Below, piece by piece: positions 2,764 through 17,238 of a stretch of DNA of 43,501 bases (position 1 is its first letter; each line of letters begins with the position of its first letter). The notes below the pieces were generated by a model, which was not told the origin of the DNA, made no database searches, and saw only the letters and a list, made by a program, of their open reading frames with translations. The translations under genes and the position numbers were made by a program. The stretch is taken from positions 1 through 43,501 of the IMG/VR virus record IMGVR_UViG_3300010373_000018; one strand, written 5' to 3'. The DNA comes from a virus.

Positions 2764-2807
2764 TAGCAGTTAGAGGAATCGAACCTCTAACTTGTACCAT
2801 ACTGCTA
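2764..2807 (-). ncRNA. tRNA-like element 3 (acceptor-like stem plus T-arm, no anticodon arm)
   Basis: On the minus strand, TAGCAGT (2807-2801) pairs perfectly with ACTGCTA (2770-2764). Between them is an 11-nt linker containing GG, then TAGAGG, a canonical T-loop TTCGATT (2783-2777) and CCTCTA. The two helices abut, as acceptor and T stems do in tRNA. There is no room for anticodon or D stems. The element begins on the TAG stop codon of the 2805-2963 gene and ends 15 nt before the next start. It resembles the minimal RNase P substrate and the tRNA-like domain of tmRNA. Role unknown. Confidence 0.5.
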
Positions 2808-5088: not shown

Positions 5089-5158
5089 GCTAAGATAATT
5101 AGCTAAAATGACTTTAGCAAATTTTTATGCTAAAATAGTTAGAATTTTAGCAAATTAG
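5089..5158. promoter_or_regulatory. Cluster of GCTAAA/TTTAGC boxes (upstream of protease/capsid genes)
   Basis: Within 70 bp occur GCTAAAAT (5102-5109 and 5129-5136), TTTAGCAAAT (5113-5122) and a second TTTTAGCAAAT near 5145-5155, plus a GCTAAG near 5090. The boxes alternate in orientation. The same hexamer recurs at 9350-9387 and 10341-10360, each time upstream of a minus-strand unit. They may be binding sites for a phage or host regulator. No Bacteroidetes -7 box is clear in the stretch. The rest of 4955-5154 holds only the inverted repeat listed separately. Confidence 0.45.
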
Positions 5159-7074
5159 ATAATAGTCTTTACTTTATTACTGTCTGAATACTTCAAAATG
5201 CCAGTATTTAAGTCTTTTAATCCAAAATTATTGAGATCAATATCTAATCCATCATAGCTTAATCCAGTTCCATTTTTGGTGTACGCAATAGTCATGTGAG
5301 GCTTGTAAACTGGGTAATCATTCTGATAATCGAATTTTTCTTTCATCAGTCTGTTTAACCTGGTTAGGTTTCCGTTTAAATCTTGGATATCGATCTTGAT
5401 CACATCATTAACATTTGAAAATACACCTATCTTTCCTGCCTTAATTGAAATAGGATTGGTAGAGATAAATTCATTAACAACATACTTCAGCTTACCCATG
5501 TTTATCTTAGTATCATCAAAACCATAAAGGACAGTTAAGTGTGGTTCAAACTCATACTCCTCCACAATACTTTCCGGAACAAGCTTCATGATGTTAGTTA
5601 CCCATTCATTAATGTCGATATCGGGATAGAACATTAAGCAGCCTTTTAACATTTCCTGCTGTTCTTTGACCGCTTTGTTGCTCTGAACGTTATTGTTTAA
5701 TGGAACAACCTGTTTGCTTTCTGATTGTTGCTTCAATAAATCTGCACTGACAATCTTTACATTTGTTGGATGCAACATCATATCCGAAACAGGATCGGGG
5801 TGTTTATCCCAACCAATAACCGATCTAAATTCATTGTCTGTAAAGTGTCCATTGCCGTACACCTCACGCATTAACTTTACATCGGGCTGTAATTCGGGAT
5901 AAAATGCACTATCAGGCTCTAATACTAATTTTCGCCCTTTATCCTTGGTAAACATTGGAACTAACCATACATTGAAAGCCTCAGTAAGATCATTATGTTG
6001 CGGCATTACAACTTGAGTAACTAAAGCCTTAAATGCTCCATCCTGATTATCATACTTTGCACCTTCTTTTAATCCAACCAATATACCATCAACATTAAAG
6101 ATTGCACATGTCTTTCTTAAGTCTTCCTTATCGGCCTCGATCAATTTCATATCAGCTACACTATCCCCAATATTATGAACCTTTACAGATGCACTAGTAG
6201 CTTGGATGTTCATGTAGTTCTCAGGCCCCTGCAATTTATCTTTAATCCTATCGTTAAGATTGTCCAATTGCTCCTGCGTCATGGATTCTTCGTCAGGGTT
6301 TGGCTTTTCAGCACTTATGAGATATGCACGCCCTCCATTGATATATGCCCTTGTCTGCGCCCTTTGATTTGCTTTCTCTCTATTTATTAAGCTCTGCGCT
6401 ACTTCGATAGGTGCTATAGCATGTAATCCTGCTCCACTATAGTTGTACAATGGATTCCATTTCTTTACATGCAAAATTCTATGTGGCTCAATCTCCATTG
6501 GCTTACCATCAAAATAAAATATGTAACTTTTGATAGGGTTTCTAAAGTCGTTAGAGTAAATAGGCTCTACCAGATGAGGAGGTAATGAGTACAGTGCAAC
6601 AGGCTTGCCGGCATTCAATCCATTCACAGGCATGTCAGCATAAATAAAACACTCTCCTAATGTATTGTAAAATCCCAATAGATCCTCAAGAAATGACATC
6701 CTTGTTTGATAACTATTTGGTTTGTTTAACAGGTCAAGTATTGGACTGCTTTCAACCTCTTTTAATGCCTTAACCTTAAACTCATTTGCTTTGTGAAGGA
6801 ATTCTGCCTTTTGCCTGTAGTTCAAATAATATGCATGCTTTTGTTCATTGGTCACCTCATATAATAACCAAGGACAAGGCTTTGCTTTATCAACGATAAC
6901 TCTTACCACCGAAAAGATGTTGACTGAATTAAACATTGATTCTTCCAGTAATCCGCCCCTACCGCCTTTCAAAAGATCAACAATATCCTTACCTATGCTG
7001 ATCACTGGTGTAAACACTCCATATCCACTGGGTGTATAACTCTTTTTCTTAAATAATCTATCCCACATTCCCAT
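5155..7074 (-). CDS. Portal protein with C-terminal 2H phosphoesterase (LigT-like) domain
   Basis: 639 residues. Residues 1-440 are an HK97-type portal (NIFSVVRVIVDKAK near the start, LGECFIYADMPVNG, YNYSGAGLHAIAP, NVDGILVGLKEGAKYDNQDGAFKAL, HFTDNEFRSVIGWD). After a Gln/Asn/Lys-rich linker, about 445-477, comes a separate domain with two H-x-T motifs, PHLTVLYG (H512, T514) and PHMTIAY (H593, T595), 81 residues apart. This is the signature of the 2H phosphoesterase/2'-5' RNA ligase superfamily. The portal forms the dodecameric DNA gate; the extra domain would be carried on the capsid. Its substrate is unknown. Family members include RNA cyclic phosphodiesterases and the anti-CBASS nuclease Acb1. 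The frame is continuous with no stop between domains. Confidence 0.85.
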   Translation of the reverse strand: MGMWDRLFKKKSYTPSGYGVFTPVISIGKDIVDLLKGGRGGLLEESMFNSVNIFSVVRVIVDKAKPCPWLLYEVTNEQKHAYYLNYRQKAEFLHKANEFKVKALKEVESSPILDLLNKPNSYQTRMSFLEDLLGFYNTLGECFIYADMPVNGLNAGKPVALYSLPPHLVEPIYSNDFRNPIKSYIFYFDGKPMEIEPHRILHVKKWNPLYNYSGAGLHAIAPIEVAQSLINREKANQRAQTRAYINGGRAYLISAEKPNPDEESMTQEQLDNLNDRIKDKLQGPENYMNIQATSASVKVHNIGDSVADMKLIEADKEDLRKTCAIFNVDGILVGLKEGAKYDNQDGAFKALVTQVVMPQHNDLTEAFNVWLVPMFTKDKGRKLVLEPDSAFYPELQPDVKLMREVYGNGHFTDNEFRSVIGWDKHPDPVSDMMLHPTNVKIVSADLLKQQSESKQVVPLNNNVQSNKAVKEQQEMLKGCLMFYPDIDINEWVTNIMKLVPESIVEEYEFEPHLTVLYGFDDTKINMGKLKYVVNEFISTNPISIKAGKIGVFSNVNDVIKIDIQDLNGNLTRLNRLMKEKFDYQNDYPVYKPHMTIAYTKNGTGLSYDGLDIDLNNFGLKDLNTGILKYSDSNKVKTII

Positions 7075-10497: not shown

Positions 10498-10556
10498 ATG
10501 AATATTACCCAGAACCATAATAGACTGACTACAAGAATATAACATCAATATTGATT

Positions 10557-10603
10557 TCGGTTTTCTAAACCGACGGTCTCAGGTTCGAATCCTGATGGGC
10601 GTA
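10557..10603 (+). other. attP: attP core: 3' part of a tRNA-Arg(UCU)
   Basis: The bases fold as the 3' half of a tRNA: anticodon arm TCGGT/ACCGA with loop TTTCTAA (anticodon TCT, Arg), 5-nt variable loop, T-arm TCAGG-TTCGAAT-CCTGA, acceptor strand TGGGCGT and discriminator A. The 5' half is absent, so this is not a functional tRNA gene. Phages that integrate into tRNA genes carry exactly such a 3' fragment so that the gene is restored. The integrase gene starts 139 bp downstream. The true crossover limits need the host sequence. Confidence 0.9.
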
Positions 10604-13831: not shown

Positions 13832-14035
13832 ATGCAAAAAAATATTAATAGCAATTTATCTGCTACGAAACTATTCGAAAGTCTAGATATAGGGTCTAGG
13901 ATTGAGGATACTAGAACTATTAATTATTTACGAAGGGAACAAGCTGTTTTTAAGCGAATTTTTCCTGAAAGACACATTGTAGTCATGAAATCAAAATTTA
14001 AAGACGGAATATCTATAATAATGAGGGCTGAATAA
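13832..14035 (+). CDS. First early gene, small basic protein of unknown function
   Basis: 67 residues, positively charged (RRE, KR, RH, KSKFKDG). It is the first gene after the early promoter and overlaps the antirepressor start by 1 nt (TAATG). Its position is that of a Cro-like or CII-like regulator, but no clear helix-turn-helix can be seen. The C-terminus (RHIVVMKSKFKDGISIIMRAE) looks like two strands. Unknown function. Confidence 0.6.
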   Translation: MQKNINSNLSATKLFESLDIGSRIEDTRTINYLRREQAVFKRIFPERHIVVMKSKFKDGISIIMRAE

Positions 14036-14859
14036 TGAATCAACTAACCAAACTATTTTCTTATCAAGGTAACCAGGTTACTTTTAGAAACGCAGAAGGA
14101 ACAGCATACGTAAATGCTACTCAAATGGCTAAATCTTTCAACAAAAGACCTGCTAAGTATTTAGAACTTCCATCAACAAAAGAATTAATTGAAGCATGTA
14201 TCCGAAAATCGGACACATCAGAAAATCAATTTATTGTTACAAAAATGGGTAGCTCAGAAAATGGCGGTGGCACCTGGTTACATGAAACAATTGCATTAGA
14301 TTTCGCACAATGGCTATCAGTAGATTTCAAATTATGGTGCAATGATCGAATCAAAGAGCTTTTAACAGTTGGAATGACAGCAACTCCTCAGACTATTGAA
14401 AACTTATTGGATAATCCTGACATGATTATTCAAATGGCAACACAGCTTAAAGAGTTAAGATCTGCTAACGACATCGCAAAGGCTCAGGTTGAAGAACAAA
14501 AAAAGAAAATTGAACAGAAAGATCAAGCTTTAATTGAGTCAAGAGAAATTATTGCTAAAGCCATGCCTAAAGTGGCCTACTGCGAAGCTGTTCTACAATC
14601 AAAAACAAATATTACAACTAATATAATTGCTCAAGAATTAGGAATAACAGCGATAAGACTTAATCAGATACTTAAAGAAAAGGGAATACATTATAAACAA
14701 GGTAGTAAATGGCTCCTAGTATCAAAGCTAAGAAGCAAAGGCTATACTGAGACTTATACGCATACCTACTTAAAGTCTAGTGGTGAAAAAGGAACAGATA
14801 TCCAAACACGGTGGACAGAGTTAGGCCGAGCATTCATTCATCACCTTTTTAAAAACTAA
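14035..14859 (+). CDS. KilA-N / KilAC antirepressor-like protein
   Basis: 274 residues. The N-terminal KilA-N domain (about 1-120) shows YVNATQMAKSFNKRPAKYL, the tryptophan motif GGGTWLHETIALDFAQWLS and FKLWCNDRI. A coiled-coil linker (IAKAQVEEQKKKIEQKDQAL, about 140-170) leads to a KilAC DNA-binding domain (AQELGITAIRLNQILKEKGIHYKQGSKWLL, then Y-T-H-T-Y and TRWTELGRAFIHHL). This pairing is standard for phage antirepressors that lift repression during induction. It is the second gene of the early operon, so it likely acts at the CI/operator switch. Confidence 0.88.
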   Translation: MNQLTKLFSYQGNQVTFRNAEGTAYVNATQMAKSFNKRPAKYLELPSTKELIEACIRKSDTSENQFIVTKMGSSENGGGTWLHETIALDFAQWLSVDFKLWCNDRIKELLTVGMTATPQTIENLLDNPDMIIQMATQLKELRSANDIAKAQVEEQKKKIEQKDQALIESREIIAKAMPKVAYCEAVLQSKTNITTNIIAQELGITAIRLNQILKEKGIHYKQGSKWLLVSKLRSKGYTETYTHTYLKSSGEKGTDIQTRWTELGRAFIHHLFKN

Positions 14860-15597: not shown

Positions 15598-15674
15598 ATA
15601 ACATCTAGTAATCAATTAATTACAGGTTTTCAAAACACCTGTCAGGCGATAGCTATGCCTAAATTTTAGCAAAA

Positions 15675-15719
15675 CGGGGTGAGACAATTGGCTTTATCAG
15701 TTCGAATCTGAACACTCCG
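15675..15719 (+). ncRNA. tRNA-like element 1 (acceptor stem plus T-arm only)
   Basis: CGGGGTG (15675-15681) pairs with CACTCCG (15713-15719), 7 bp with one G-U. A 15-nt linker contains TTGG. The T-arm is TCAG-TTCGAAT-CTGA (15697-15711) with a canonical T-loop. There is no anticodon arm. The 3' sequence is CAA, not CCA. The total of 11-12 stacked bp and the T-loop resemble a minimal RNase P substrate. Confidence 0.5.
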
Positions 15720-15964
15720 CAAGAGCGACAACGGTCGCAAATAGTTCTTTGACATTTTGTACTTCCATGTTCCCGAAAGGGACAAAATTCTATGTTGGAT
15801 AGATTGTTAATGTAGCAGTAAATGTGAAAGCCGTCGATTCCAAACTTGACACCTAAGTGAATAGTGGTAAGGTGTACGGAAATCAATTTGGCTAGATGTG
15901 CGGTTGGCGACACTCTAATACTTACACGTCCAGTAAGTCCTAGCAATTGAATTTCCTGTGTAAA

Positions 15965-16014
15965 CATCATGTCCGATAGGTTCGGTATGTCGGGTTCGAT
16001 CCCCGAACATGGTG
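15965..16014 (+). ncRNA. tRNA-like element 2 (acceptor stem, short D-like hairpin, T-arm)
   Basis: CATCATGT (15965-15972) pairs with ACATGGTG (16007-16014), 8 bp with one G-U. CCGA-TAGGT-TCGG (15973-15985) forms a D-arm-like hairpin with GG in its loop. A 4-nt linker TATG replaces the anticodon and variable region. TCGGG-TTCGATC-CCCGA (15990-16006) is a perfect T-arm. All helices abut as in tRNA. An alternative longer hairpin GTTCGG/CCGAAC is possible. This is the best formed of the three elements. Confidence 0.6.
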
Positions 16015-16462: not shown

Positions 16463-16706
16463 AGATTTAAGAACAACAGTATGCAGTATTCAAACAGTAT
16501 TCTTTGATGTCGCATACCTATACTATCCTGCTACTGAATTTGAATCGGTAGAAGTGGATATCCAGGAGATTAAGATCGGAGGAGTTGAAGTCTATAAACA
16601 TATAGATGTGTATGACCAGATCATTTCGGATGAATGTTTAAATGCGCTCGCAAAGCAGATTATTAAACAGGAAGAGTTAAAAAACGAAACCTATGTCAAT
16701 TCATAA
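16455..16706 (+). CDS. Small early protein, unknown function
   Basis: 83 residues, acidic, with an N-terminal strand-rich part (TTVCSIQTVFFDVAYLYYPATEFESVEVDIQEI) and a C-terminal helix (SDECLNALAKQIIKQEEL). It overlaps the upstream membrane gene by 8 nt and the Erf gene by 14 nt, so it belongs to the same translation unit. No family recognised. Confidence 0.6.
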   Translation: MGKDLRTTVCSIQTVFFDVAYLYYPATEFESVEVDIQEIKIGGVEVYKHIDVYDQIISDECLNALAKQIIKQEELKNETYVNS

Positions 16707-17238
16707 GAAACTGTTTGAGATCCAAAAGAATATTGGAAAACTTACAAAGGACACCAGCAATCCTTTTTACAAGTCAAAATATGCTGATATCAATCAGTTG
16801 ATTGAATTAACAAATCCACTCCTTCACGAAGTAGGTTTAATGGTACTTCAACCTATAACTGGCAATACATTAAAAACACAAATTTTTGATGTAGAAACCA
16901 ATGAACTTATCGAAAGTAGCCTTGATCTTCCACAAGGTAACGACCCTCAAAAAATTGGTTCAGCTATCACATACTACCGCCGATATACTTTAAAAGCACT
17001 TCTTAATCTTCAAGAAGAAGATGACGACGGTAATAAAGGAGCAAGCAAGCCAACAAACGAACCTATGGAACCTGAAGATAAAAAGCCATGGATGACTGAA
17101 ACACAATTTAACACCTATCTAGCCCTGATAAACAAAGGTGAAAAATGGATGGTAAGGCTGAATAAAAAGCTAAACATGAAAAAAGTGTATCGAGAAACTC
17201 TCCAAAAAGCAGAGACAAATTATAAACCAAAAACGTAG
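16693..17238 (+). CDS. erf: Erf-family single-strand annealing recombinase
   Basis: 181 residues. The family block GNDPQKIGSAITYYRRYTLKALLNLQEEDDDGN (about 90-120) is diagnostic for ERF: a G-S-x-x-T-Y-x-R-R-Y motif followed by an acidic stretch. The N-terminal KLTKDTSNPFYKSKYADINQLIELTNPLL is also typical. It would anneal single strands in phage recombination and concatemer formation. The C-terminal region (WMTETQFNTYLALINKGEKW) probably contacts an SSB or partner. It is followed by a Rad50-like ATPase and later RusA, making a recombination cassette. Confidence 0.9.
   Translation: MSIHKKLFEIQKNIGKLTKDTSNPFYKSKYADINQLIELTNPLLHEVGLMVLQPITGNTLKTQIFDVETNELIESSLDLPQGNDPQKIGSAITYYRRYTLKALLNLQEEDDDGNKGASKPTNEPMEPEDKKPWMTETQFNTYLALINKGEKWMVRLNKKLNMKKVYRETLQKAETNYKPKT

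Follow-up and report, generated by a model that had tools for sequence, protein, structure and literature searches.

The window, as we call the whole 43,501-nucleotide stretch of viral DNA analysed here, carries between an antirepressor gene and replication genes what appears to be a noncoding RNA cassette of a phage early operon. Two tRNA-like elements without anticodon arms bracket an untranslated core RNA led by a boxA and, judging from sequence, they probably act as tRNA-type punctuation that would excise a boxA-protected early noncoding RNA. The elements and their covariation, the fixed position and order of the cassette, the identity of its boxA and the replacement of the elements by other makers of RNA ends can be read in the sequences; from these we infer the cleavage, the enzymes and the antitermination. 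The features concerned are:

14035 to 14859, plus strand: KilA-N/KilAC antirepressor gene, the conserved neighbour upstream of the cassette (Pfam, synteny)
15622 to 15642, plus strand: hairpin ACAGGT-TTTCAAAAC-ACCTGT, directly upstream of the conserved motif
15642 to 15660, plus strand: conserved motif TCAGGCGATAGCTATGCCT (TCAGGCGNNAGCYRTGYYT), then TAAATTTT; start of the cassette
15675 to 15719, plus strand: tRNA-like minihelix 1 (acceptor, GG linker and T-arm, without an anticodon arm)
15725 to 15738, plus strand: hairpin GCGAC-AACG-GTCGC between element 1 and boxA, by direct reading
15743 to 15754, plus strand: boxA AGTTCTTTGACA, matching the sequence behind tRNA-Ile/tRNA-Ala in Sphingobacterium rRNA operons
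15755 to 15964, plus strand: structured untranslated RNA core of type B, shared with the related locus L155 (blastn, compensatory changes)
15965 to 16014, plus strand: tRNA-like minihelix 2 (8-bp acceptor, D-like mini hairpin with AGGT and T-arm, without an anticodon arm)
16693 to 17238, plus strand: ERF recombinase gene, the conserved neighbour downstream (Pfam, synteny)
2764 to 2807, minus strand: third tRNA-like minihelix, behind the major capsid gene in the gap between two small late genes (descriptor and covariance model)

A sequence-only reading had described elements 1 and 2, and direct reading of the letters confirmed both at these coordinates, with acceptor, GG and T-arm. Element 1 has the acceptor CGGGGTG/CACTCCG, a 14-15 nt linker with TTGG, and the T-arm TCAG-TTCGAAT-CTGA, whose fifth pair is an A.A mismatch. 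Element 2 has the acceptor CATCATGT/ACATGGTG, the D-like mini hairpin CCGA-TAGGT-TCGG and the T-arm TCGGG-TTCGATC-CCCGA. At 45-50 nt neither leaves room for an anticodon arm. Their covariance model scores are 42.4 and 34.7 bits, respectively, both elements belonging to the training set.

With tRNA (RF00005) the elements share a 12-bp acceptor/T-arm stack, a TTCGA-type loop and its GG partner, but not the full cloverleaf with anticodon arm, measured at the Rfam gathering score. ARAGORN calls no tRNA in the window, and there is no Rfam tRNA match at 15675-16014 even at E 5. An Rfam tRNA match does lie elsewhere, just before the integrase gene (10542-10603, plus strand; 62 nt, 32 bits, anticodon loop TTTCTAA); it lacks a matching 5' acceptor strand and probably represents the 3' half of a tRNA-Arg belonging to the phage attachment site. 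tmRNA (SsrA) also has a tRNA-like domain without an anticodon arm, in which an acceptor stem and T-arm go with a reduced D-arm. That domain, however, is made by both ends of one RNA, whereas each window element is closed within 45-50 nt, with no pseudoknots, tag reading frame or alanine G3-U70 pair; ARAGORN called no tmRNA in the window. The L010 contig contains a tmRNA gene (L149, 17669-18035, minus strand), possibly an integration site or host flank. The earlier statement that no described family fits holds for Rfam, where no noncoding-RNA family match describes the cassette, and for the open-access literature, to which the search for a description was confined (subscription journals were outside its scope).

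The cassette is present as 14 distinct modules in related phages and prophages (sampling was centred on Sphingobacteriaceae); the carriers are a group of temperate phages of Sphingobacteriaceae bacteria. A search with the downstream ERF gene led to L002 and L003, which have the same arrangement in other sequences. Patterns from these two led to L010 and to the same prophage in Sphingobacterium cellulitidis (L122), and L127, L155, L167, L189-L191, L199, L200, L204 and L205 were found after that. The order is a covarying hairpin with the motif TCAGGCG..AGC.ATG, element 1, usually a hairpin and boxA, the untranslated core, and an end element. Almost every module is preceded by a gene of antirepressor type (KilA-N/KilAC or similar; none was seen in the short L189 locus), and downstream come a small gene of helix-turn-helix-like kind, one for a small membrane-type protein, and ERF; Pfam annotation covers the window, and neighbour genes in relatives were assigned from similarity of sequence. 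Searches at the protein level from the two small flanking ORFs turned up no relatives, the 422-aa protein found nothing in genome contigs, and nucleotide searches of phages and plasmids gave no matches. A boxA follows a T-loop in 111 contigs; leaving aside the L002 phage, the ones inspected proved to be ordinary tRNA contexts or coincidences. Pattern matches in Paenibacillus and L009 were also due to chance. The type C core (see below) was absent from 335 genomes in a class-wide search, so that, as far as this sampling goes, the cassette seems restricted to phages of Sphingobacteriaceae.

The three window elements are far above chance. A descriptor consisting of a 7-bp acceptor, a GG linker and a T-arm with a TTCGA-type loop matches the window exactly three times (scores 20, 23 and 23); in 40 dinucleotide-shuffled copies of the window taken together, four matches reached 20 or more and none 23. 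Across 319 kb comprising this phage and its relatives, 15 matches scored 22 or more, versus one in five shuffled copies. A covariance-model search of related phages, which the sequence-only reading had proposed, recovered further elements. Model R1, whose three source sequences were nearly identical, proved too narrow. R2, with element 1 and two elements of other phages as its training set, found the third minihelix, which is not among these (27.2 bits, E 5.5e-4 in 357 kb), and its weak matches in L155, L190 and L191 fall exactly at the place of element 1 (slot 1). R3 recovered the held-out element 1 of L003 (27.5 bits) and an element of L006 (28.3 bits), and missed element 1 of L199 and the second elements of L002 and L003. 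Most of the examined R3 genome matches of 21-25 bits were 3' halves of ordinary tRNAs.

Conservation and covariation in related phages, on which the earlier proposal had been staked, are both present. In a model-based alignment of 14 elements 94.3% of cells are paired, 11 of 12 pairs show changes on both sides, and the covariation score is 0.874 (0.189 when shuffled, at most 0.184 with slid partners), figures that lean towards structure because the alignment was fitted to it and most elements were found by the pairing descriptor; independent tests therefore weigh more. (MAFFT misaligned the elements and was workable for subsets.) Aligned by sequence alone, element 2 of the window and that of L155 differ by three compensatory double changes: G-C to A-T in the acceptor, A-T to T-A in the mini D-hairpin and C-G to T-A in the T-stem. 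Element 2 shows three compensatory differences between L010 and L127 as well (AATGG/CCATT to AACCG/CGGTT, and T-A to A-T in the acceptor). Some elements have T-loops that are off consensus (CTCAAAA, ATCGTTA), element 1 of L155, L190 and L191 has only 5-6 acceptor pairs, and CCA is encoded in few elements.

Unremarked in the sequence-only reading were the boxA, the upstream motif with its hairpin, and the conservation of the RNA between the elements. The upstream hairpin has covarying stems in 14 of 14 modules, with compensating changes (ACAGGT/ACCTGT in the window, AGCAACT/GGTTGCT in L155, GCTATC/GATAGT in L191); of 21 control matches to the motif, most lack it or have it only weakly. L194-L196 carry the motif by chance. 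Candidate roles of the motif at 15642-15660 are a leader RNA hairpin or a promoter/operator.

Slot 1 begins about 5 to 20 bases after the motif TCAGGCGNNAGCYRTGYYT. In L189 it is filled by an ordinary cloverleaf tRNA (59 bits) and in L204 by a longer tRNA-like element. Slot 2, at the 3' end of the core, holds the second minihelix in the window, L002, L003, L010, L127 and L155. In six relatives (L189, L205, L167, L190, L199 and L004), with cores of types C and E, it holds a predicted type III hammerhead ribozyme with the CUGANGA core, GAAA, the NUH triplet and three stems. Two of these match RF00008 with the core residues present but below the Rfam gathering score of 48.5 (L189, 39.2 bits, E 3e-5; L205, 34.9 bits, E 5e-4), and a descriptor, which matches all six, added the other four, with a covarying stem I. 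The likeness to phage hammerheads (RF00008, type III) resides in these relatives, whereas the window has a tRNA-like element at that place, and neither Rfam nor the descriptor found a hammerhead in its cassette. In L200 (type C) the hammerhead is decayed, its core being mutated (TTGATAA), and a downstream minihelix is kept. Type D modules have in slot 2 a tRNA-like element with an insert in place of the anticodon region (L191) or a still longer one, recognized by eye (L204). Since tRNA, tRNA-like element and hammerhead all create RNA ends, their replacement of one another points to function, and since related phages have a real tRNA or a hammerhead in these slots, the elements most likely mark where RNA is cut out. 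The earlier proposal that they release the RNA between them thus stands as regards the bracketing of the same module in relatives, the covariation and the tRNA/hammerhead swap at the same positions; the processing itself we infer.

Insert-bearing tRNA-like elements were seen at five places: L190 685-833 (minus; further downstream, 149 nt with a 94-nt insert), L191 1238-1339 (minus), L199 1147-1258 (minus), L155 1276-1369 (minus) and L204 1538-1630 (plus). They have canonical D- and T-arms, with inserts of up to 94 nt replacing the normal anticodon arm, and are natural tRNA scaffolds for other RNA.

The window boxA is identical through ATATTG in L191 and L204, and the full boxA of these two, AGTTCTTTGACATATTG, occurs in host rRNA spacers, where it stands behind tRNA-Ile and tRNA-Ala in 8 of 10 Sphingobacterium loci examined. 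By the sequence seen in host rRNA operons, then, the cassette boxA would be the host's own rRNA-type antitermination signal. The hairpin at 15725-15738 has a boxB-like position, as in rRNA operons, and analogous but different hairpins are found in L002, L010, L155, L189, L190 and L204. Type C modules have a degenerate boxA or lack one (none was seen in L167); a boxA-like match in G001 (L125) lies at a gene start and is due to chance. The Sphingobacterium rRNA spacer (16S - tRNA-Ile - tRNA-Ala - boxA - 23S) resembles the cassette in combining tRNA, boxA AGTTCTTTGACATATTG and structured untranslated RNA, but the phage version lies in an early operon, has a miniature tRNA-like element, and carries a short variable RNA in place of rRNA.

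That the stretch between the elements is gene-free, as first described, is upheld by the relatives, which share no ORF there. That it is hairpin-rich is only weakly true: its folding energies are ordinary (z -1.06 and +0.37, within the shuffle range) and stability alone says little, but its helices are conserved by compensation in L155. The window core matches L155 (G185) with a blastn E of 1.1e-7, and five compensatory double changes were read by hand from the alignment. There are at least five unrelated core types: A (L002, L003, L010, L127), B (the window, L155), C (L167, L190, L199, L200, L205, with a tail in L004), D (L191, L204) and E (L189). Such diversity at one fixed site, lying between antirepressor and replication genes, suggests early control or immunity. 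GOLLD and ROOL are also phage noncoding RNAs near tRNA genes, but they are several hundred nucleotides long, and the cassette has no Rfam match.

We suggest the following scheme. The early transcript would read through the antirepressor gene or begin near the motif. boxA would load NusB-S10 and the rRNA-type antitermination complex on the polymerase, which could then pass through the untranslated region without being stopped by Rho; in some relatives it would also pass an intrinsic terminator. RNase P, for which acceptor-T minihelices are known to be minimal substrates, is expected to cut on the 5' side of the element acceptors; host tRNA 3' processing enzymes (RNase Z or exonucleases) would cut on the 3' side, and the RNA between the elements would be released and trimmed.

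An unlikely but serious alternative is that the cassette is a nut- or put-like antitermination leader, in which boxA and the folded core act directly on RNA polymerase to modify it and the elements merely shield or separate the leader. The succession of hairpin and boxA is of the rRNA type, the site behind the antirepressor and before the replication genes is comparable with lambda nutR, and there are intrinsic terminators downstream in L003, L010, L155 and L191. A cis-acting leader, however, needs no 3' ribozyme or tRNA, boxA is poor in type C modules, and no clear terminator was found behind the window cassette. Somewhat less probable again is a role of the released core in trans, as an immunity or control RNA that works by base pairing, like the P4 CI and P1/P7 c4 RNAs. 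These are small regulatory RNAs of phages whose precursors RNase P cleaves, and c4 lies beside an antirepressor, as does the phage cassette; several unrelated core types at one fixed site are also what an immunity determinant would be expected to show. Against this, exact pairing reveals no antisense target in the window itself, the longest complement to the core being 12 nt versus a shuffle mean of 11.95. We know of no boxA or tRNA-like bracketing in the P4 or P1/P7 RNAs.

Two further readings concern the elements alone. It is most improbable that they are decaying relics of real tRNAs that have lost the anticodon arm: phages often carry tRNA genes, L189 has a real tRNA in the slot and the insert-bearing forms could be intermediates, but stem pairing has been maintained through many double changes, the GG and T-loop are kept, and elements also stand at other intergenic sites, exactly at stop codons. 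The earlier suggestion that they are decoys for tRNA-binding enzymes such as host anticodon nucleases we would give hardly any credence. It is true that they offer tRNA elbow and acceptor features with no cleavable anticodon loop, but the anticodon arm, the target of anticodon nucleases, is missing here, and the elements are not free copies but have fixed places in a boxA transcript module. They are, moreover, replaceable by a hammerhead ribozyme, which cannot be a decoy for tRNA enzymes, so that the slot swap counts against this idea.

L010 (~5660-5750, minus), L155 (~1190-1260, minus), L191 and L200 have a conserved pseudoknot-like element (GGCAG..GACATTT..CTGCC..AAATGTC in L010); an intrinsic terminator comes next, still ahead of the genes that follow. 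Three modules have another RNA in common behind the cassette, enclosed by a long terminal helix (AAAAGAG..CTCTTTT): L003 (3061-3195), L155 (~1390-1500, minus) and L189 (behind the hammerhead).

Elements outside the cassette agree with punctuation between genes. In three cases the preceding gene's stop codon overlaps or adjoins the acceptor: the opening bases TAG of the minus-strand element at 2764-2807 are that stop codon, element 3 of L010 starts on the final base of one, and L227, which model R3 picked out between two genes for DNA methyltransferases, has one within its acceptor. A minihelix in L006 lies immediately before a start codon. In the tRNA punctuation of mitochondrial and some bacterial transcripts (RNase P/RNase Z) a tRNA-shaped element likewise stands between transcript units and can abut a stop codon; the phage elements differ in being dedicated, without anticodons, and exchanged with hammerhead ribozymes.

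More tentatively, and with more doubt than confidence, we propose a new class of phage early RNA systems in which interchangeable end-makers (anticodon-less minihelices, insert-bearing tRNA-like elements and hammerhead ribozymes) flank hypervariable trans-acting RNAs led by boxA, whose role would be to control lysogeny or to oppose host defences, the minihelices also serving as general gene punctuation. Should the punctuation reading hold, phages turn pared-down tRNA shapes into cutting marks of their transcripts, independently of translation. The natural swap of tRNA, tRNA-like element and hammerhead at one position is a ready-made experiment on what a processing signal needs, and bears on the minimal RNase P substrate in vivo and on phage borrowing of the ribosomal antitermination signal. 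At least five undescribed RNA families are also opened up, with a testable role in the lysis-lysogeny region.

Three observations lie apart from the cassette. The window portal protein (5155-7074, minus) has a C-terminal 2'-5' RNA ligase/2H phosphoesterase-like domain (PF13563, 30.7 bits; PHROG RNA ligase), an unusual fusion. In the L006 contig (L147) the minihelix is found beside an odd 78-nt 'tRNA-Phe(AAA)' upstream of a replication-like gene (1371-1418 and 1522-1599, minus). Finally, a high-scoring minihelix, AACTTAT..ATAAGTT, ends a long noncoding stretch in a larger, tRNA-rich phage (L033, 3907-3952, minus), and may indicate wider use of such elements.
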